Assembly (NCBI GenBank): GCA_023053545.1 | Contig: JAKZAN010000002.1 | Coordinates: forward strand, 1,162,375-1,226,374 | Reading direction: 5' to 3' | DNA: 64,000 bases | Source: Lepidurus packardi | Taxonomy: Eukaryota; Arthropoda; Branchiopoda; Notostraca; Triopsidae | Part shown: piece by piece, positions 14,812 through 44,060 of the stretch | How positions within the stretch are numbered: position 1 is the first letter of the stretch | How the letters are laid out: each line of letters begins with the position of its first letter | Position numbers and translations under genes: made by a program | Notes under the pieces: generated by a model | Databases searched by the model: none | Told to the model about the DNA's origin: nothing | The model's input: the letters and a program-made list of their open reading frames with translations, nothing else

Positions 14812-16644
14812 CTAAAATATGTAGCTCGCACTTTGCTGAAGTCTTTTAATAGCCATGGATGCTGTAGGTTGGATAGGGAGGGTGCTGGTGGGACTGACAG
14901 AAAGGGCATCGTATTCCAAGGTTCGCTTTCTTCGGTTCATTTTGCTGCACCTAGAAGTCGTACCGCAATTACAGTTAGTGGAGCCATCGGAACACACGCA
15001 ACACGTTTTTATGGCGACTGTAGTCGTAGTAGTGGACGTCTGAGTAACCGTTTTGGTAATCGATGAAGTTGAAGTTTGGGTTTGGGTTACAGAGATGGAA
15101 CTCGTTAAAGTGACTGGAGCAGGTGTTACGGTTGCAGTTGTGACAGAAATGGATACAGATGGCGTGGTGACTGTAGTTGTACTTGTCGCTGTCGATATGG
15201 TGGTAGACGTCGAAGTTTGGGTAATCATAGAGGTCACTGTTGTAGTCGAGGTGGAAGTGTATCTATCCGTGACAGAAATTGTGCTGGTCGAAAATTGTGT
15301 AGTTGTGAAGGTCGTCGAATCAGTTACGGACACTGTCGCTGGGGTTATTGTTGTGGTCGTAATTGATAGCGAAACAGACGGAGTGGTGACAGTCGTTGTT
15401 GAAGTCGTGGTAGAAGTTTGAGTGATGGTGGAGGATTCAGTGGATGTAGAGGTTACGGTGGATGTTGCAGTAGAAGATTGTGTTTCCGTTACGGATGACG
15501 TGACGGGAGGGAGAGTGAATGTAGAGGTTACCGTGTTTGTGGAGACTAACAAATCTTGTATAGTTTCGGTTATTACAGATGACACTGTTTGGGTGCTGGT
15601 TGATGTCTGCCGTTCGGTCGAGGTTACAGTGGAAGTTGAGGTTTGTGTGTCAGTTACCGACACTGTAGCAGGAGTCGGACTTACGCTTACAGTGGCAATT
15701 GACACAGACACTGATATCTCAGTCGTTGAAGACGTTACAGTTTGGGTTAAGTTCACACTATATACTTGTGTGGAAAACATTGTAACTGAACTCGGACTGA
15801 TAGTCTCGGTAGTCGTTGAGATTAACGTGGATGTATAAGCAGTTGTTGATGTTTTCGTTGTAACCGATGGGGTAGTAACGGTTGACATTTCGGTACTTGT
15901 CGAGGTTACGGTTGAGAGGTAAACAGATGTATAGCTGTCCGTTACAGACACTGTTGACGGGGTCGGACTTAAGGTAACGACGGTAGTTGATAAAGAGGTA
16001 GATAGGTAAGTGACTATTGATGTTTGCGTTGAAGCTGATATAAAAATGCTAGTGGGTGTATCAGTTATAACATAGATAGATGTTACAGTGGATGTTCCGT
16101 AGTCTGTACTATAAACTGTAGTAATCGCACTCCCCAAAACACTGCTGAGCGCATCGCCGAAATCGCCTCCCAGTGCTGCTACTCTGACGAGTAACGCTAT
16201 GGCTGCCCATGGTAGCATGGCTAAACTAGCGAGTTTTATATTTGCTAATGTTGGTATAAAGCCCATACCGTCAAATGGAGACAAAAGCTGTCGGCCCTGC
16301 GCTTGTGATTCTTCGGACCTCCCCGGTTCCATTACGTCGTGTTTGTCTTCCACACTGGACTTTATGCTAGGGGTTAGAATCTTAATCTGGGGATAGTTTT
16401 GATATGGGTAAAGCACCATAGCGGCCTTCGTGGGATTGCTTGTTTCCAACTGTCGGTCGCTTTTTAAAAGATGTTCGGTGTGTTGTTGATAATTATTACT
16501 AATCTTTTCTGACCAAGTCCAAGATGGTTCTAATTGGGTTACGGAGCGAAGCATGTTGGGCATTCGGTAGCCGTTAACTAACACGCTACAAAGAATACTC
16601 ATTGTCAACAGGAGACAAGACTGCACTAGGAAAGTTTTACCCAT
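14812..16644 (-). CDS. Ser/Thr-rich mucin-like secreted or membrane protein, 610 aa, single exon
   Basis: One uninterrupted minus-strand frame from ATG 16642-16644. Residues 1-25 (GKTFLVQSCLLLTMSILCSV) form a signal peptide. A second hydrophobic segment at about residues 130-158 (ASLAMLPWAAIALLVRVAAL) may be a membrane anchor. About 170-550 is almost entirely Ser/Thr/Val in imperfect repeats built on TVSVTD and TSTVTSTST, a classic O-glycosylation region. The tail has a small Cys cluster (CCVCSDGSTNCNCG) followed by a furin-like RRKR. Similar PTS-rich proteins occur in arthropod cuticle, gut and egg coats, but no named family is assignable. The Val-rich open frames on the opposite strand are mirror images of the repeats. 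No introns, unlike its neighbours. Confidence 0.75.
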   Translation of the reverse strand: MGKTFLVQSCLLLTMSILCSVLVNGYRMPNMLRSVTQLEPSWTWSEKISNNYQQHTEHLLKSDRQLETSNPTKAAMVLYPYQNYPQIKILTPSIKSSVEDKHDVMEPGRSEESQAQGRQLLSPFDGMGFIPTLANIKLASLAMLPWAAIALLVRVAALGGDFGDALSSVLGSAITTVYSTDYGTSTVTSIYVITDTPTSIFISASTQTSIVTYLSTSLSTTVVTLSPTPSTVSVTDSYTSVYLSTVTSTSTEMSTVTTPSVTTKTSTTAYTSTLISTTTETISPSSVTMFSTQVYSVNLTQTVTSSTTEISVSVSIATVSVSPTPATVSVTDTQTSTSTVTSTERQTSTSTQTVSSVITETIQDLLVSTNTVTSTFTLPPVTSSVTETQSSTATSTVTSTSTESSTITQTSTTTSTTTVTTPSVSLSITTTTITPATVSVTDSTTFTTTQFSTSTISVTDRYTSTSTTTVTSMITQTSTSTTISTATSTTTVTTPSVSISVTTATVTPAPVTLTSSISVTQTQTSTSSITKTVTQTSTTTTTVAIKTCCVCSDGSTNCNCGTTSRCSKMNRRKRTLEYDALSVSPTSTLPIQPTASMAIKRLQQSASYIF

Positions 16645-16898
16645 TTTGTATTTTTTTATGGATCTGTCAATTTAAAAATAATGTTCACACAGTTCACCAT
16701 CACTTAATGAAAAGTACAGTAATCATTAAAATGTTTTAGGAATAAGTGCGGCTGTATCACAGTGCGGCTGTACTGCGCACCAAAGCTGGACAACTCAGTT
16801 ACAAGATTTGGTAGAACACTCTGTTAAAGCAGTTTGTATTCAATTTATGTTTGTCTTCCGTCACTGAAGTATCTGAACCCATGACTGGGAAGAGGTAT

Positions 16899-37003: not shown

Positions 37004-40000
37004 ATGCCACTAAATAGTTCCCAAGTAGCCGAAAATTCGCCACTCCATAACTCAACGTTATTCCCAAGTAAATAAAACTCTTCCATTGTACTTTTTTGTT
37101 TTTGCTTCGTTTCTGTTTGTCCCTAGGTGGCTTGGAAGAGATTAATTCAGAGAAAGGCATTATTGTAGCAAATTTTGGCATTAATTGGTCTCGGAAGTCT
37201 TACTTAGATAAAATATCTAACCCCGCGTGCAAAGAAAAATCTATAAGCGTTTCCACGTCGTCAACTACAGGAAGTGTGGCCAGGAAACGCTTCACCTTGA
37301 GCTCCTCCCCAGTTTGTCAGCCAAAGCGGTCAAAAATCGAAGGTTCTTTCGTGGAACAAGTTGAACAGAAGCGTCTAGCGCGTGCTAAGGCTTCCGATAA
37401 GGAAAACTCCGTGTCTTTACGCTCTCATACCGAGATGGCGTCCTCTACCCACTACAAAGATTCTCCACAAGCCCCTGTCAGAGTAACGAGAAGCACAAGT
37501 GCCAAAGATATCATATCGACCCGTCAAACAAGCCCACTCAGAATGCCGAAAGATAAAGCTGTTAATGCAACCCAATCTCAGTTTACTTCTCCAACACCCT
37601 CTTCAACCTCCCAAACTACAGGAACTGCGGCCAGGAAACGCTTTACCTTGAGCTCCTCCCCAGTTTGTCAGCCAAAGCGGTCAAAAATCGAAGGTTCTTT
37701 CGTGGAACAAGTTGAACAGAAGCGCCTAGCGCGTGTCAAGGCTTCCGATAAGGAAAACTCCGTGTCTTTACGCTCTCATACCGAGATGGCGTCCTCTACC
37801 CACTACAAAAATTCTCCACAAGCCCCTGTCAGAGTAACGAGAAGTACAAATGCCAAAGATATCACATCGACCCGTCAAACAAGCCCACTCACAATGCCTC
37901 CCAGTCATAAGAAGTTTAAAATTGCACTAGAAAATGTTCCTCCAGCTACCAAAAACGTATCCGTCTCTAAGAACTTACTTAAACCGACCTTCGTTGACAC
38001 CCGGACTTCAAGCTCCGCCCTTCACGATGTTCCTATTAAGGGAACGGTGCTAAGAGTTCGCGCGGAGCGAATTTCGGCGGCAAAGTTACGACAAGGACCC
38101 ATTCTTTTCACTCTGCCCGAATCACGCGAGGATTCCTTGTCAAGGTTATCGAATTCCAACTCTTTGGACTCGTCGGCCAGCTCTGGTACGATTGGTGTCC
38201 ACCAACGAGCTCCCATACGTCAACCTCGCATGGACGTCAGCACTAAAGTCCCCGAGCAATGGAAGCGAAAAACGCGGGACAGTGTCTGGTCTTCCACTTC
38301 CACCAGCTCGGGATTCGGATCCGATCCTGAAGCTGGCCCTCCGGCGTCAGAAAAGGGCATGTTGAAGAAACGCCGAACGGATTTACTTACGGCAACCCAT
38401 AGTCCGCCAGACTCCGACGTTTTGGGTTAGAGAATTTCCGTTTGATTTTCGAAAAGCCACTTTTACTGAATTTACTCTCTTTTTCGGTTGCAGGCAAATT
38501 AGTTTCGATACCCGCTGCTGAAACTCGGTACAATTTAAGGCACAGATCCACTTCCCGTCCTGGCAAAGATGTTAAAACACCCCAAGATACAACCCAATCT
38601 GGTCCTGAATCGCAGAATATTCCGGGAAAATCACAAAAAATCGCAGAAAATACGTCTAGCCGAGCTAGGAAGGTAAAGCAGGTCGAGATGATCGATTTGG
38701 AACCAAGAAGTAGATTTAAACCAGAAGCGAGAAGAGAAATTGACCCAAAATCTGCTGAACTGCAGCCTGTTGTCGTAATAAAGTGCTTGAAAGAGACAGA
38801 ATCCACCAAGAAAAAGGCTGCGAAACCTCGGGCAACTGCTAAAGATGGTAACTGCGCGAATTGGAAGGATGGATTAATAATTTTGTGCTTAATTAGGCAA
38901 GGAAACGACGTCGGTGAAGGTGAAGGTGAACACGGTGAAAATCACCAAGAAACCCAAGGAAATTGCAAAGAGGAATGCAAAGAAGCCTAAAGAACCTGAA
39001 AAAGGTTTAAATTTTTGTTTTGTTACGCGATTCATGTCAATTTTGAGCATATTTTAGTAAATTTCTTTTTTCAGTGGCTCCACCCACTTTTACAGGAGCA
39101 CCAAAAACAGCAAAGGAAAGGCAGCAATTGATGCTCTTTTTGAGCCAGAAAGAAGACCAAGTTAAGGTCCCCAAAGCGAGTGTGCTATATCAAGGGAGAA
39201 CAGAGGTAAATTATCCAAATCGATGTTTTTTTGTTTTGTTTTTTAGATTATTATGAGTAATTTGTTCAATTTTATATTTTTTACCTTTATCTTTGTACCA
39301 TTTTAGTGGACTACTGTGTTGAATTGCCGTTTGGACAACTCTGATACCTCAAGTATGCGTACTCCCACCACGCCTTCTTCGTCGGTAATGGGTACCCCGT
39401 CAGGATCGCGCTGGTGGGAAAGTGAAGAGGAGAGTAGGAAAGACACGCCCTTTTTAGCTCGGAAAATTACCGAAAATATTACAAAGTATATTTTGAATAT
39501 AATATAATAAAATATTGTAAAGCAATAGTACTTTTTATTTTTTGTGCTAGGCTTAAGAACGTACAGCAGATCCACAAGTCGATGAAAGAGCGAGGGAAAC
39601 AGGCGAGGAAACTTGAAAGAGATGAAAAGAAACTGGCGAAGCTGAAAGAGAAGAATATGAAGAAGCAAAGGGACTTAGTGCCTACGAATAAGGAGGAGGA
39701 GGATGGTTACGAGACGGAAGATGATGAAGAATTGGGCTTTGCTGAGAAACTGAGAGACATTTCGCCCCCGAAAGTGAACCAGGCGCGTTGCTCTACTCCA
39801 CTGTCAAGGGACAAAGTAAAGACTGCGCTGTTCAAGGAAAGAAAGGCAGCTGTGAAGGCGAAAGACATCGAGGATTGTATGACTGAAGAACTGAGGCAAA
39901 TAGAAAAAAAGGTGAACAAAAAGAAGAGGAAATTCAGGTATCATATGGAGTACAACGGTATTCCCTTGGAAGTCACCGCCTTTGCGGCACCTGACGAGGA

Positions 40001-40055
40001 TTCAGATGAGGAAGATGGTTCGGTTTTAGATTCTGATGAGGAAATTTATTTTTAA
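37004..40055 (+). CDS. unrecognised basic nuclear protein with a 117-residue tandem duplication and twin KEN boxes
   Basis: Exon 1 (37004-37067, MPLNSSQVAEN...) splices in phase to 37127-38427, then four to five more exons reach the stop at 40053-40055, giving about 790 residues. The protein is rich in Ser, Lys and Arg and lacks membrane segments. Residues about 65-160 and 182-277 are near-identical (period 351 bp). Each copy contains RFTLSSSPVCQPKRSK and SDKENSVSL, a KEN-box degron (37399-37407 and 37750-37758). Later come an RYNLRHR motif, Lys-rich NLS-like segments (KKPKEIAKR), a charged coiled-coil-like helix (about 39560-39660) and a highly acidic C-terminus (DEDSDEEDGSVLDSDEE). Composition and KEN boxes suggest a mitotic or chromatin protein degraded by APC/C-Cdh1, as inference. 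It lies 386 bp after CENP-I. No named family is claimed. Confidence 0.75.
37263..37900 (+). repeat. in-frame tandem duplication, period 351 bp
   Basis: 37263-37549 and 37614-37900 are about 287 bp each with only a handful of mismatches, separated by about 64 bp unique sequence. Both are coding and in the same frame. The high similarity at third positions points to a recent duplication or gene conversion. Confidence 0.9.
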
Positions 40056-40412
40056 TAGCAAATCTTGGAAGTGTCCTTTTAATTCTATAAGCAGAAGTTA
40101 CCAAAATCTTGTATATTGTAGTGATTACCGCCGCCATTTTCACCCCCCCCCCCCCCCAAACCATTAATTTATGTCACGTAAAGCGGAGAAGAGCAGCATA
40201 AATATATAATACGTTTTTTATATCGTTTCGAGTTGAATTTCAGTTGTGTTTTAGTATTTACTTATTTTAAACCTTTCTTCAGTTTAAAAAGGCTTAACGA
40301 TTTGAATTTTCAGCGCCTAAAACCTCCTATTCGCCCTCTAATGTTACTTCGGTTCACCATTAGAAACGTGAATTGCATATGGCCGTCCGGAAATCGTAAT
40401 TTTTCTCATTAA
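40056..40412. other. intergenic with poly-C tract, upstream of CMC4
   Basis: A run of 15 C at 40143-40157 follows the stop of the previous gene by about 90 bp. The remainder is AT-rich and probably contains the promoter of the CMC4 cluster. No TATA or CRE is evident. Confidence 0.5.
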
Positions 40413-40719
40413 ATGAAAGATCCGTGCAAGAAAACTGCTTGCGACATTCAAACTTGTTTACAAGGTAAGTTTTCTTCTAAATATGTGTATGCCTGTATCT
40501 ATTCATTAAGCTTTGGGTTCAGTAAAGTAATAGCAAAAAAAAGCTGGCTATGTATTGTCATGGCATGAAAATTTTCAAGGAATTTGCTTCGAAACAGCCC
40601 ACAGTTATTCACTAGAAGCTTGCCAGTCTATCCTTGATCGTATGAAAGAGTGTTGCCTCAAGTGGCAAGGTCGTTCCGAATCTTGTGCAGGTTTCGTGGC
40701 TCCAAAAGATGAGTTATAA
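40413..40719 (+). CDS. CMC4: CMC4-like Cx9C mitochondrial intermembrane-space protein
   Basis: Two exons (40413-40464 and 40598-40719) join in phase to 57 residues. MKDPCKKTACDIQTCLQ then AHSYSLEACQSILDRMKECC and GRSESCAGF match human CMC4 (KDPCQKQACEIQKCLQANSY) including the Cys spacing of a CHCH-fold Mia40 substrate. The acceptor at 40596-40597 was chosen because it restores Q-A-H-S-Y; an earlier AG at 40579-40580 would insert six residues (GICFET) in place of one. The C-terminus is unusual: the last residues are PKDEL, formally an ER-retrieval signal, although no signal peptide exists. The last 11 nt overlap the start of the next ORF. It is the first member of a dense four-gene cluster. 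Confidence 0.85.
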
Positions 40720-41058
40720 CTCCAATGGTAACTTTTGATTCAAAGAAAAGCATTATTTTTATTCAAAATACCAGCTAAAAACGTCTTTTCAAAGGATTCC
40801 AATAATCGCGAAGCCGTCTGGTCTCGCTTCTCAAAGAACGTGAATAAGCCGTGGTACAAACGCAATCCCATTTTGTTCCAAAGGGTATTCGTCTCCGTCA
40901 GCCTGCTCATCTTATTCAGCCGTCCCTTGTACGATATTTTCTTCCGGCGCTACGTCGAAGGCCCCAATCCCATCCGAGACCCAACTACCCTCAACGTAAT
41001 CCTCAACCCCTCCGAAAGACGGCACGCAAAGCCCAAACCCAGCCAACCGAGTCCCTGA
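40709..41058 (+). CDS. unnamed 100-aa single-pass membrane protein
   Basis: Begins at ATG 40709, inside the last codons of CMC4 in the +1-shifted frame. Exon 1 (40709-40727, MSYNSN) splices over a 47-bp intron to 40775-41058; phase is correct (G|CT). 100 residues: a basic amphipathic N-terminus (SRFSKNVNKPWYKRNP), one hydrophobic helix (FQRVFVSVSLLILFSRPLYD), then RRYVEGPNPIRDP and a Pro/Lys-rich tail. The positive N-terminus and single helix resemble small mitochondrial inner-membrane assembly factors, and both flanking genes are mitochondrial, but I do not recognise the family. Its stop TGA (41056-41058) is directly followed by the ATG of NDUFAF8. Confidence 0.65.
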
Positions 41059-41259
41059 ATGGAGTCCCTACGCAAAGCTCGCTCTCGTTTGCGCAGTTAT
41101 CCGCAACTAATAAGCGAATGTGGTGTCCAAGCAGCTTCTTATGGACGTTGTGTGGCCCTTCAAGTTGACGATTTGAAGAAAGAAGCGTGTGCCAGCGAGT
41201 TCCAAGCGTTCAAAACGTGTTTACACCAAGCAGCCAAGAAAATGGGCTCAAAATTGTAG
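41059..41259 (+). CDS. NDUFAF8: NADH dehydrogenase complex I assembly factor 8
   Basis: Intronless, 66 residues. MESLRKARSRLRSYPQLISECG then AASYGRCVAL and ACASEFQAFKTCLHQAAKKM match human NDUFAF8 (C17orf89; RSRLRAFPERLAACGAEAAAYGRCV and EFEALRSCF). The four cysteines have CHCH-type spacing (C-x9-C pairs). NDUFAF8 stabilises NDUFAF5 during complex I assembly in mitochondria. The start codon abuts the preceding stop (TGAATG), with no room for an independent promoter, so translation from a shared transcript is likely. Confidence 0.88.
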   Translation: MESLRKARSRLRSYPQLISECGVQAASYGRCVALQVDDLKKEACASEFQAFKTCLHQAAKKMGSKL

Positions 41260-41334
41260 AGAAGTGAGAAACTAGTCAAACTCTAGCTGAAATTAGAGCA
41301 ATAAACTCTTGCAAACGCAGGATTTGAGCCAAAA
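41260..41334 (+). promoter_or_regulatory. 75-bp intercistronic gap: poly(A) signal then acceptor-like site
   Basis: Contains a small stem (CTCTA...TAGAG, 41281-41298), AATAAA at 41300-41305 and GCAAACGCAG ending at 41320, then 14 nt to the PIGM ATG. This order (poly(A) signal, short gap, AG, start codon) is what trans-spliced operons show, but it could also be chance. Confidence 0.4.
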
Positions 41335-42492
41335 ATGTCGCCACGAAGTTTCACATGGAATTTAATCTTCTCAGGGTGCCTTCGACTGGCGTTAATTGCC
41401 TATGGCCACGCCCATGATGCCTGGTTCCAGGTCAAATACACTGATATCGACTATGTCGTCTTCTCTGATGCTGCGGCACACGTGGTTCAGGGTAGTTCGC
41501 CTTATAACCGTCCTACTTACCGCTACACGCCTCTTTTGGCATGGCTTTTGACTCCCAATTCGTTTCTGCATCAAGATTTCGGGAAAATCCTGTTTTCCCT
41601 CTGTGACTTGTTAGTAGCCATGCTAATTTATCGCTTAATTTTGCGAGCCAATCACTCGGAAAAATGGGCTAAAAATGCAGCGTTGGTTTGGCTCTATAAT
41701 CCCGTCACCATCGCCGTTTCAACGCGCGGAAATTCCGAATCTTTGGTCACTTTATTGGTCCTATTGGTATTGGACACGTTTTGGGTGGGTGACGTCATCC
41801 TCAGCGGGCTTTTGTACGGCTTGGCGATCCATTTCAAGATCTACCCCATCATTTACTCCTTTCCTATGTACTGCGCTCTTCAACCCGTGCAGAAATTCTC
41901 GGATTTCTTTAGTCCGAACCTCAGAGTCTGCAAATGGGTCTTAAGTACAGGAGTTTCGTTGGTGTTTTGGACAGCGTTAGCTTATTATGCCTATGGACAT
42001 GAGTTTCTAGACGAAGCGGTGTTATACCATGTAACCCGCACGGATGTACGTCATAACTTTTCAGTTTACTTCTATCTGCTGTACTTGTGGGAAGAGTACC
42101 CAAGTCGGTTCCTTTCATTGTTGTTGTTTTTGCCACAAATGGTTGCGGTTCTGACGTTAGGATGGCAGTACAGGGCCAAAAAAGACCTCCCCTTTGCCAT
42201 ATTTACGCAAACTATGGCGTTTGTGACGTTTAACAAAGTGGTCACCTCCCAGTACTTTTTGTGGTACTTGGCATTGCTACCGTTGTGCTTACCGGCCATA
42301 AAGATGTCGGTGAAGGAAGCGGGGGCATTGTTGGGACTTTGGTACCTGGGACAAGCCTTATGGCTGTATCCGGCTTATCTGTTGGAGTTCCAGCAACAAG
42401 ACACCTTTCTGTACATTTGGCTAGCGGGATTGCTGTTTTTTGGCGTCAACGTTTTTATCTTGAAGAGGCTAGTTAGCTGTTACAAGTCTTGA
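41335..42492 (+). CDS. PIGM: GPI mannosyltransferase 1 (PIG-M), intronless
   Basis: Dolichol-phosphate-mannose-dependent alpha-1,4-mannosyltransferase adding the first mannose to the GPI precursor in the ER lumen (GT50). 385 residues, close to the human 423. The lumenal DxD site is YTDIDYVVFSDAA (residues ~35-47). It is followed by SPYNRPTYRYTPLLAWLL, LVWLYNPVTIAVSTRGNSES, GLAIHFKIYPIIYSFPMY and FNKVVTSQYFLWYLALLPL, all typical PIG-M blocks between about ten helices. ATG 41335 lies 75 bp after the NDUFAF8 stop. An AATAAA (41300-41305) and a CAAACGCAG acceptor-like site (ending 41320) lie in that gap. Confidence 0.95.
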   Translation: MSPRSFTWNLIFSGCLRLALIAYGHAHDAWFQVKYTDIDYVVFSDAAAHVVQGSSPYNRPTYRYTPLLAWLLTPNSFLHQDFGKILFSLCDLLVAMLIYRLILRANHSEKWAKNAALVWLYNPVTIAVSTRGNSESLVTLLVLLVLDTFWVGDVILSGLLYGLAIHFKIYPIIYSFPMYCALQPVQKFSDFFSPNLRVCKWVLSTGVSLVFWTALAYYAYGHEFLDEAVLYHVTRTDVRHNFSVYFYLLYLWEEYPSRFLSLLLFLPQMVAVLTLGWQYRAKKDLPFAIFTQTMAFVTFNKVVTSQYFLWYLALLPLCLPAIKMSVKEAGALLGLWYLGQALWLYPAYLLEFQQQDTFLYIWLAGLLFFGVNVFILKRLVSCYKS

Positions 42493-42584
42493 AGACAGAA
42501 ATAGCAAGTTTTGCGATGGCTATGAAGGTAAAGGAGAACGATACGCTTACGATGAAGTGTTCTTCATTGTTGTATTCTATGAGT

Positions 42585-42745
42585 TCCTCTAGAGAGACAG
42601 TGTTTTTCCCATAATTCTGCGTTGAATAGTGTTGAATTGTTTGCCTTAATCGCTCATTGGTTGATGGTGACGTCGTGTAACGCGGGGGCCAATGAGAAGT
42701 GAGACAGCGAATTCGAACCGTTCCTAATGGTAATTTAACGGTTTT
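42585..42745 (+). promoter_or_regulatory. METTL26 promoter and first exon, intact copy
   Basis: CTCATTGG (42653-42660), TGACGTCG CRE-like (42668-42675) and CCAATGAG (42689-42696) form an inverted CCAAT pair around a CRE. About 30 bp later CCTAATG|GTAATTT supplies the start codon (42727-42729) exactly at a splice donor. Confidence 0.6.
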
Positions 42746-44060
42746 GACATTTAAATCCATGAAATACATAAGATGTGTACATAGTCAAGACGTTGTACAT
42801 ATAATTTATTATTTCAAACCCAGGAATGTTTACATATGTGATTAATTACTGATTTGTGGCGTTAACTAGTTAAAATGGAGAAATGTGTGCTTAACTGTAG
42901 GAAAGTAGCGAGTAGATCTATCTGATGATCACAAGGATTGAAGTTGTCGTTAAATAATATTCCGATCTCTTCTTTTGCCATGAGTATCTCCTTATCAAAG
43001 GCTAAAACTTACTAAGCAGTTACAAACGCCCTAAAGCGAGCAAGGTCACGTTGGAAGATTAGTCATGAAGATAAACAGCAGAATACAAGTTTGAACGTTA
43101 GCGTTAGGTTTCCTTCACTTTCTGGGAGTTTTTCTTGCAGCATAGGATAATGTTTTCCCCGTAGAATTGTATTATCCCGCTAAAACTTTCATCGGTTGAG
43201 GCTAACGTCGTCCTAGCGCGGTGGCTAATGAGGAGTTAGTAAGCGAATTCAAACTGTGTACTTCTAATGGTTATTCTAGTTCTTTGAAGCTATTTGTTCA
43301 CATTATATTAAGAGTGATATGTCGAGTTTACTCGTTTTGATGCCAGAGTTGTTGTTTGTATAAGTACTGTGATATTACTACCGTTATCGAGTTAAAAACT
43401 AACATAGTTTTTGCTTAATTGCAGGAATATATGGCCAACAGGATGTTTAATCCAGCTGCTGATCGCAATAAAGGTCACATCTTGGAAGTTTTGAAGAAGT
43501 TCTTACCTTCTAATGAAACGCAACACCTTGGCTTAGAGATCTCGTCAGGCAGTGGGCAACACGTGGCGTTTCTCGCGTCCCATTTCAAGAATATCATTTG
43601 GCAGCCATCAGAATATGATAAAAGCCAATTACGAAGCATCCAAGCCTATATTGTGGACTCCAAACTCGACAATGTGCTCCCACCAGTCTACGTAGATATC
43701 ACCGCTCCCTTGAATCAATGGGAACTCGATTTGCCTAGCAACGAATGCTACGATTTTATGCTAAATATTAACATGATCCACATTTCCCCCTGGGCATGTA
43801 CCGAAGCTCTTTTCGCTCGGGCAGCCGAGTTGTTGAAACCTGGTGGCTTGCTTTTCACGTACGGCCCTTATGCTCTTGATGGGCTCGTTTCGCCCGAAAG
43901 TAATGTTCGGTTTCATGAAAGTTTACAAGCGCGTGACCCTCACTGGGGATTGCGTGATGTAGCAGATTTAAAAACCCTTGCTTTAAAATACCGCATTACC
44001 TTGGTCGAAATGATAGATATGCCTTCCAACAACAAAACTTTAGTTTGGAAGAAGTTGTGA
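42727..44060 (+). CDS. METTL26: methyltransferase-like 26 (DUF938)
   Basis: SAM-dependent methyltransferase-fold protein of unknown substrate. The main exon 43425-44060 encodes FNPAADRNKGHILEVL, GLEISSGSGQHVAFLA (SAM-binding motif I), WQPSEYDKSQLRSI, INMIHISPWACTEALF, GGLLFTYGPYALDG and HWGLRDVADL...MIDMPSNNKTLVWKK. This is collinear with human METTL26 (C16orf13). The acceptor at 43423-43424 fits an upstream exon ending in ATG at 42727-42729, giving M-E-Y-M-A-N-R and 212 residues. Otherwise ATG 43431 starts the same protein 3 residues later. A second candidate first exon lies at 43267. The 3' flank is tandemly duplicated, including the sequence around the stop codon. Confidence 0.88.
43118..43285 (+). 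repeat. degenerate second copy of the METTL26 promoter and first exon
   Basis: Aligns to 42585-42745 with an offset of 540 bp. The three motifs are each altered: CATTGG to CATCGG, TGACGTCG to TAACGTCG, CCAATGAG to CTAATGAG. The ATG (43267-43269) at the donor is kept, but the donor reads GTTATT instead of GTAATT. Confidence 0.7.

Follow-up and report, generated by a model that had tools for sequence, protein, structure and literature searches.

Four genes, those for CMC4, a possible small membrane protein (ORF2), an NDUFAF8-like protein and PIGM, are tightly packed on the plus strand of the window, the 64-kb stretch of a 13.5-Mb contig analysed here (assembly of 108.6 Mb in 344 contigs). The first three are best read as one tricistronic mRNA, translated by leaky scanning or reinitiation, with PIGM expressed apart; a probability of roughly 0.55 is given to this reading. 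A single promoter 5' of 40413 would give a spliced CMC4-ORF2-NDUFAF8 mRNA with its 3' end past an AATAAA at 41300. A share of the scanning ribosomes would bypass CMC4, whose start is weak, and begin translation at ORF2, and another share would reach NDUFAF8; the ATGAGTTATAA and TGAATG junctions may in addition allow reinitiation. PIGM would be a separate gene with its promoter in or near the block end. Read directly from the DNA are the feature positions, what CMC4 and PIGM encode, the sequence around each start, the small number of ATGs in between, the lone AATAAA, and two gene pairs elsewhere in the genome with a similar layout.

Organization of the block

The features are as follows.

40413..40464, plus strand: CMC4 exon 1; start context cattaaATGA (weak); donor AAG/GTAAGT, phase 1
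40598..40719, plus strand: CMC4 exon 2; TAA at 40717-40719; the alignment to 1hp8 spans the exon junction; intron 40465-40597 (133 nt)
40709..40727, plus strand: proposed ORF2 exon 1, from the gene model only (MSYNSN); 11-nt overlap with the CMC4 end
40728..40774, plus strand: proposed ORF2 intron, 47 nt; donor ATG/GTAACT
40775..41058, plus strand: ORF2 exon 2; open over 93 aa, free of ATG, encoding a single hydrophobic segment; TGA at 41056-41058
41059..41259, plus strand: NDUFAF8-like gene, 66 aa; ATG directly at the ORF2 stop; own stop TAG
41300..41305, plus strand: AATAAA, without a second copy on the plus strand from 39507 to 43466; probably signals the 3' end of the three-gene message
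41318..41320, plus strand: CAG, earlier proposed as a trans-splice acceptor; not set apart from other CAGs
41335..42492, plus strand: PIGM, one uninterrupted frame of 385 aa; probably transcribed separately

From stop to next start, the junctions measure -11 nt for CMC4/ORF2 (if the ORF2 intron is right), 0 nt for ORF2/NDUFAF8 and 75 nt for NDUFAF8/PIGM. The initial annotation had placed the CMC4 stop at 40717-40719, the ATG at 40709, TGAATG at 41056-41061 and the PIGM start 75 bp after NDUFAF8, and all of these positions are right. The sequence itself has the ORF2 TGA (41056-41058) abutting the NDUFAF8 ATG (41059) with no gap, and PIGM starting 75 nt past the NDUFAF8 stop with the AATAAA in between.

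Identity of the genes

The assignments of CMC4 and PIGM can be regarded as secure on profile and structure matches. CMC4, a twin CX9C protein, corresponds to Pfam PF08991 (E 2.1e-14; 54 bits against a gathering score of 28.9) and to PDB 1hp8 (E 3e-13), and its matches in the genome are the two exons of this block plus one place elsewhere at E 0.56. PIGM corresponds to Pfam PF05007 (E 1.7e-80; 271.1 bits against a gathering score of 23.4) and to PDB 9wno (E 3.1e-84). The identification of NDUFAF8 appears good: 27 of 59 residues are identical to human NDUFAF8, and the ORF has one matching place in the 108.6-Mb genome. In Pfam it matches CX9C and UPF0203 alone (E 0.002), both under their cut-offs.

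PIGM is an ER GPI mannosyltransferase, a function unrelated to the rest of the block. The earlier proposal of a unit for mitochondrial biogenesis does not extend to PIGM; two of the three upstream ORFs encode known mitochondrial proteins.

ORF2: coding status, start and intron

ORF2 is probably a coding sequence. The GC content of its exon 2 by codon position is 0.46, 0.41 and 0.67, the high third-position value being coding-like. In the predicted protein, 19 residues starting at residue 44 form a hydrophobic segment (Kyte-Doolittle 1.68) between basic stretches, and exon 2 has one matching place in the 108.6-Mb genome. When scored with the codons of 38 long ORFs, the ORF2 frame ranks top of six by a narrow margin (0.027 vs 0.007); with a three-gene training set, two reverse frames outscore it. 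Codon usage is too weak as proof of ORF2, because the 38-ORF score also fails to single out the PIGM frame. Searches of Pfam (E<=1) and PDB (E<=10) both left ORF2 without a match, which speaks against a known OXPHOS subunit.

These same results bear on whether ORF2 is a gene at all. If it is not, 40775-41055 would be untranslated or belong to a different exon, leaving CMC4 and NDUFAF8 separate or dicistronic. The lack of Pfam and PDB matches at those thresholds fits this very improbable reading, as do codon scores that are weak (and in one test lower than those of two reverse frames), the absence of an ATG from exon 2, and an 8% chance of the stop-free run (a frame as long as exon 2 arises in 8% of 20,000 shuffles). 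Against it stand the GC3 of 0.67 versus 0.46 and 0.41 at the other positions, the top rank of the frame with the larger training set, if by a small margin, and the basic-hydrophobic-basic layout of a small membrane protein.

Since exon 2 contains no ATG in 284 nt, ORF2 requires either a splice or a non-ATG start. The start within the end of CMC4 put forward earlier is partly borne out: the ATG at 40709 exists and lies in another frame (ATGAGTTATAA at the CMC4 end). However, unspliced, this frame meets a stop after 9 codons, and it is open only after removal of a 47-nt intron. The 11-nt CMC4/ORF2 overlap is therefore a gene model and not a fact of the sequence, as it depends on this intron, which the initial annotation omitted.

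The proposed intron is shorter than all eight introns placed by homology, which range from 71 to 398 nt. Six of these belong to aPKC (398, 95, 92, 71, 86 and 271 nt) and were placed with a human sequence and the best splice choice; some alternatives lie a few nucleotides off, one giving 71 or 74 instead of 95 nt. The others are the 133-nt intron of CMC4 and a 74-nt intron of SMIM4, the latter a candidate with donor TTT/GTGAGT picked by homology. An ab initio search of 284 kb yielded 23 gaps resembling introns. Of these, one measured 35 nt, none 45-49 nt, three 50-54 nt and three 55-59 nt; a control with GA replacing AG gave 15, with two at 35-44 nt and none at 45-59 nt. Together, these sizes make 47 nt possible, yet at the edge. 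The ORF2 acceptor is matched or exceeded by 30% of the 770 CAGs in the window, as scored with a matrix (PWM) that is weak, having been built from 8 acceptors; the CMC4 acceptor, once left out of it, scores below both the ORF2 acceptor and the CAG ending at 41320.

An alternative route to ORF2 would use the first exon of CMC4, spliced either to 40598, giving CMC4, or to 40775, giving MKDPCKKTACDIQTCLQ joined to ORF2 with CMC4 exon 2 skipped. The ATG at 40709 would then be irrelevant and the CMC4/ORF2 overlap nonexistent. At least 16 ATG-donor combinations between 40056 and 40745 fit the phase of the ORF2 acceptor. In most of them the donor, judged by eye, departs strongly from consensus; ranked in the same way, the donor of CMC4 exon 1 (AAG/GTAAGT, phase 1) comes first among the 16 listed. 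The resulting intron of 310 nt lies inside the observed range. Genes with a common first coding stretch are on record in FlyBase as 10 pairs and one triplet (PMC4528330), and human MTCP1 and CMC4 have a common 5' UTR (PMC8566464). However, the phase would match by chance in one case out of three, the product would be half a CHCH domain fused to a membrane protein, and NDUFAF8 would still need a downstream start. This arrangement is considered unlikely.

Start contexts and a possible path of scanning

In the modelled mRNA, ATGs occur at 40413 (CMC4), 40642 (in the CMC4 frame), 40709 (ORF2), 40725 and 41059 (NDUFAF8). The base at -3 is T for CMC4, A for ORF2 and T for NDUFAF8. The ATG at 40725 would be created by the ORF2 splice junction; it is out of frame, opens 23 codons and lies ahead of NDUFAF8. 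Three further ATGs 5' of CMC4 (40171, 40341 and 40379) would become upstream ATGs if the mRNA start is early.

The scarcity of ATGs in ORF2 was assessed in several ways. An ATG-free stretch of 284 nt is found in 2.5% of 9,386 overlapping segments from the 38 long ORFs, and eight of these 38 hold one. ORF2 has one out-of-frame ATG, where 3.9 would be expected if codons were used as in three genes (P 0.039). Against this, Markov shuffles on exon 2's own dinucleotides are without ATG in 21% of cases. The pattern is mixed with respect to leaky scanning: the T at -3 of CMC4, the A at -3 of ORF2 and the ATG-free exon 2 agree with it, yet there is an ATG at 40725, NDUFAF8 also has T at -3, and a fair share of the shuffles lack ATG too.

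Downstream, three ATGs inside NDUFAF8 (41118, 41141 and 41242) would obstruct scanning through to PIGM. The AATAAA behind them has a chance expectation of 0.07 in 75 nt. Taken together, the start contexts, the few ATGs, the NDUFAF8 ATGs ahead of PIGM and the sole AATAAA favour a three-gene message with PIGM apart, without amounting to proof.

Possible transcript boundaries

Should each ORF instead have its own capped mRNA, with promoters in the upstream coding sequences, the packing would reflect genome compactness only. The initial annotation saw no room for separate promoters; this was too strong, because a promoter can sit inside an upstream coding sequence, and such a promoter is compatible with the sequence here. 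The genome is compact (108.6 Mb), and many fly dicistronic loci yield monocistronic mRNAs too (PMC4528330). Consecutive junctions of -11 and 0 nt, together with a block that holds no AATAAA before 41300, argue against independent promoters and make them quite unlikely.

A message including PIGM, with all four ORFs on one mRNA, appears very unlikely. The AATAAA at 41300 lies 30 nt ahead of the end of the gap, three ATGs inside NDUFAF8 stand in the way, and the function of PIGM is unrelated to those of the other genes. In favour of such a message, a 75-nt gap would not be unusual among the fly distances (-34 to 319 nt), and two tetracistronic sets are annotated in the fly (PMC4528330). The polycistronic unit suggested at the outset is therefore retained in reduced form: fly precedents and similar pairs in this genome make a CMC4-ORF2-NDUFAF8 mRNA the best reading, with PIGM probably apart.

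PIGM had also been suggested to be resolved by trans-splicing, that is, the pre-mRNA of a spliced-leader operon would be cleaved and PIGM would receive a leader at 41320. The AATAAA followed by a CAG 15 nt on resembles tunicate operons, the intercistronic median in Ciona operons is 1 bp (PMC7986045), and spliced-leader trans-splicing exists in calanoid copepods (PMC4664967). However, the CAG at 41318-41320 is close to the median, its score with the matrix described above being equalled or exceeded by 48% of the window's 770 CAGs. In the genome, CopepodSL has one match with 3 mismatches, and 0 in a reversed control. Five of at least 47 5S places (four 5S loci plus a histone-linked repeat) showed 5S and histone stem-loops only in Rfam scans, with no spliced-leader RNA; over the 64-kb window, Rfam gave no match. 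The junctions at 40709 and 41056-41061 leave zero intergenic space for an acceptor, and operons had been unreported in copepods and amphipods (PMC7986045). Trans-splicing of PIGM from such an operon is thus highly improbable; a leader of a new kind is possible, and nothing in the evidence calls for one. The 5S spacers at C135 are about 62 nt.

Comparable pairs in the same genome

Two pairs known as dicistronic in the fly were sought in this genome, and both are present. MOCS2A-MOCS2B (C2) has a 5-nt gap, no ATG from the first start to the second, and start contexts catcacATGG and then gaaaagATGG. SMIM4-C12orf73 (C1) lies elsewhere than the block and has a 20-nt gap, contexts tcagcaATGA and then ttaacaATGC, one in-frame ATG between the starts and a 5-codon upstream ORF ahead of SMIM4; SMIM4 has G at -3, and its context is not clearly weak. 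MOCS2B was named via the Pfam MoaE family and SMIM4 via a human query, and the remaining members of the pairs are presumably MOCS2A and C12orf73. From these layouts we infer a shared mRNA for each of the two pairs in this genome. A further intact MoaE gene on C245 is probably bacterial. As to the animal itself, a nuclear COI copy shares 91.5% identity with a Daphnia COI and 88.3% with a Drosophila COI, and the 18S is eukaryotic, so that a crustacean-like source may be supposed.

Comparison with known systems

In FlyBase, 159 gene pairs are recorded as dicistronic, and sets of three and of four cistrons number 7 and 2; exclusively polycistronic Drosophila loci have intercistronic distances of -34 to 319 nt (PMC4528330). 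With -11 nt (conditional on the ORF2 intron), 0 nt and 75 nt, the block stays inside this range throughout. Small proteins are over-represented at the fly loci, and 18 gene pairs overlap in different frames (PMC4528330). Among the literature matches listed, as judged from titles and abstract openings, there is no description of a CMC4-ORF2-NDUFAF8-PIGM cluster, which is no proof of its absence.

If the three-gene message exists, it would join, as a three-cistron example, the few animal mRNAs that encode more than two proteins, would suggest that a shared mRNA for small mitochondrial assembly factors recurs, and would mark out ORF2, through the genes beside it, as a candidate mitochondrial protein. 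It would also serve as a warning for annotation, as a pipeline allowing one CDS per mRNA would retain one-third of these genes. A doubtful extension is that the block is an operon-like unit conserved among arthropods. A single mRNA would then encode three mitochondrial assembly factors, ORF2 would be a membrane protein, not recognised so far, that partners NDUFAF8 or CMC4, and starts would be set by graded leaky scanning.

Several known systems share parts of this architecture. As in the spliced-leader operons of tunicates and nematodes (PMC7986045), the genes lie head to tail with very short gaps; in contrast to them, no spliced leader was found in this genome by the searches above, and two junctions of the block are without an intergenic acceptor. 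In the human MTCP1/CMC4 locus, CMC4 likewise sits in a transcription unit with an unrelated ORF, but MTCP1 lies within the first intron of CMC4, and the two depend on alternative splicing and a common 5' UTR (PMC8566464). Green-algal bicistrons have weak first contexts and fewer start codons ahead of the second ORF (PMC11892635). The Mocs2A/Mocs2B dicistron, known from the fly, is similar in having two small, functionally linked ORFs, which in this genome lie 5 nt apart with no ATG from start to start; it differs in that its products are subunits of a single enzyme and its ORFs do not overlap. The Drosophila pair sloth1/sloth2 (human SMIM4/C12orf73), for which reporter tests fit leaky scanning, resembles the block in its small mitochondrial proteins of single-pass or CHCH size, abutting ORFs on one (here putative) transcript, non-optimal first start and short inter-ORF spacing (PMC9681215). 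It differs in comprising two ORFs, proposed paralogs with a role in complex III assembly (PMC9681215), whereas the ORFs of the block would number three, be unrelated to one another and overlap where the first meets the second. The block is thus best read as a further instance of a locus type already known from Drosophila polycistronic loci and sloth1/sloth2.

Other features of the window

14812-16671, - strand: stop-to-stop frame of 619 codons
37072-38430, + strand: open frame with an internal protein repeat
42678-42721 and 43214-43257: diverged direct repeat downstream of PIGM

By eye, the product of the 619-codon frame is very rich in Ser and Thr and starts with a hydrophobic stretch that looks like a signal peptide; judged from its sequence, it resembles a mucin-like secreted protein. 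The protein predicted from the + strand frame contains at least two copies of a repeat, SSSPVCQPKRSKIEGSFVEQVEQKRLAR...SHTEMASSTHYK, also seen by eye. The two units beyond PIGM, the last gene of the four-gene block (41335-42492, + strand), are 80% identical over 44 nt and are perhaps an old duplication or a mobile element.

Features elsewhere in the assembly

Nuclear-size contigs of the 108.6-Mb assembly, G000 (C1-C6, C21 and C38), carry numerous COX1-like stretches containing TGA codons, which are probably nuclear copies of mitochondrial DNA. The COX1 frames of small contigs C43, C52 and C214, and the MoaE frame of small contig C245, are intact and free of stops, and probably represent bacterial sequence within the assembly. 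At L032 (G000:C9:11500-14500), 5S rRNA genes and histone 3' stem-loops share 1.36-kb repeats, and the 5S genes are therefore linked to histone genes; outside repeats of this type, 5S forms tandem arrays of 180-181 nt.

Two close gene pairs lie in the same genome as the CMC4-ORF2-NDUFAF8 block:

L031, G000:C1:11599720-11602857: SMIM4-C12orf73, gap of 20 nt
L034, around G000:C2:2549127: MOCS2A-MOCS2B, gap of 5 nt
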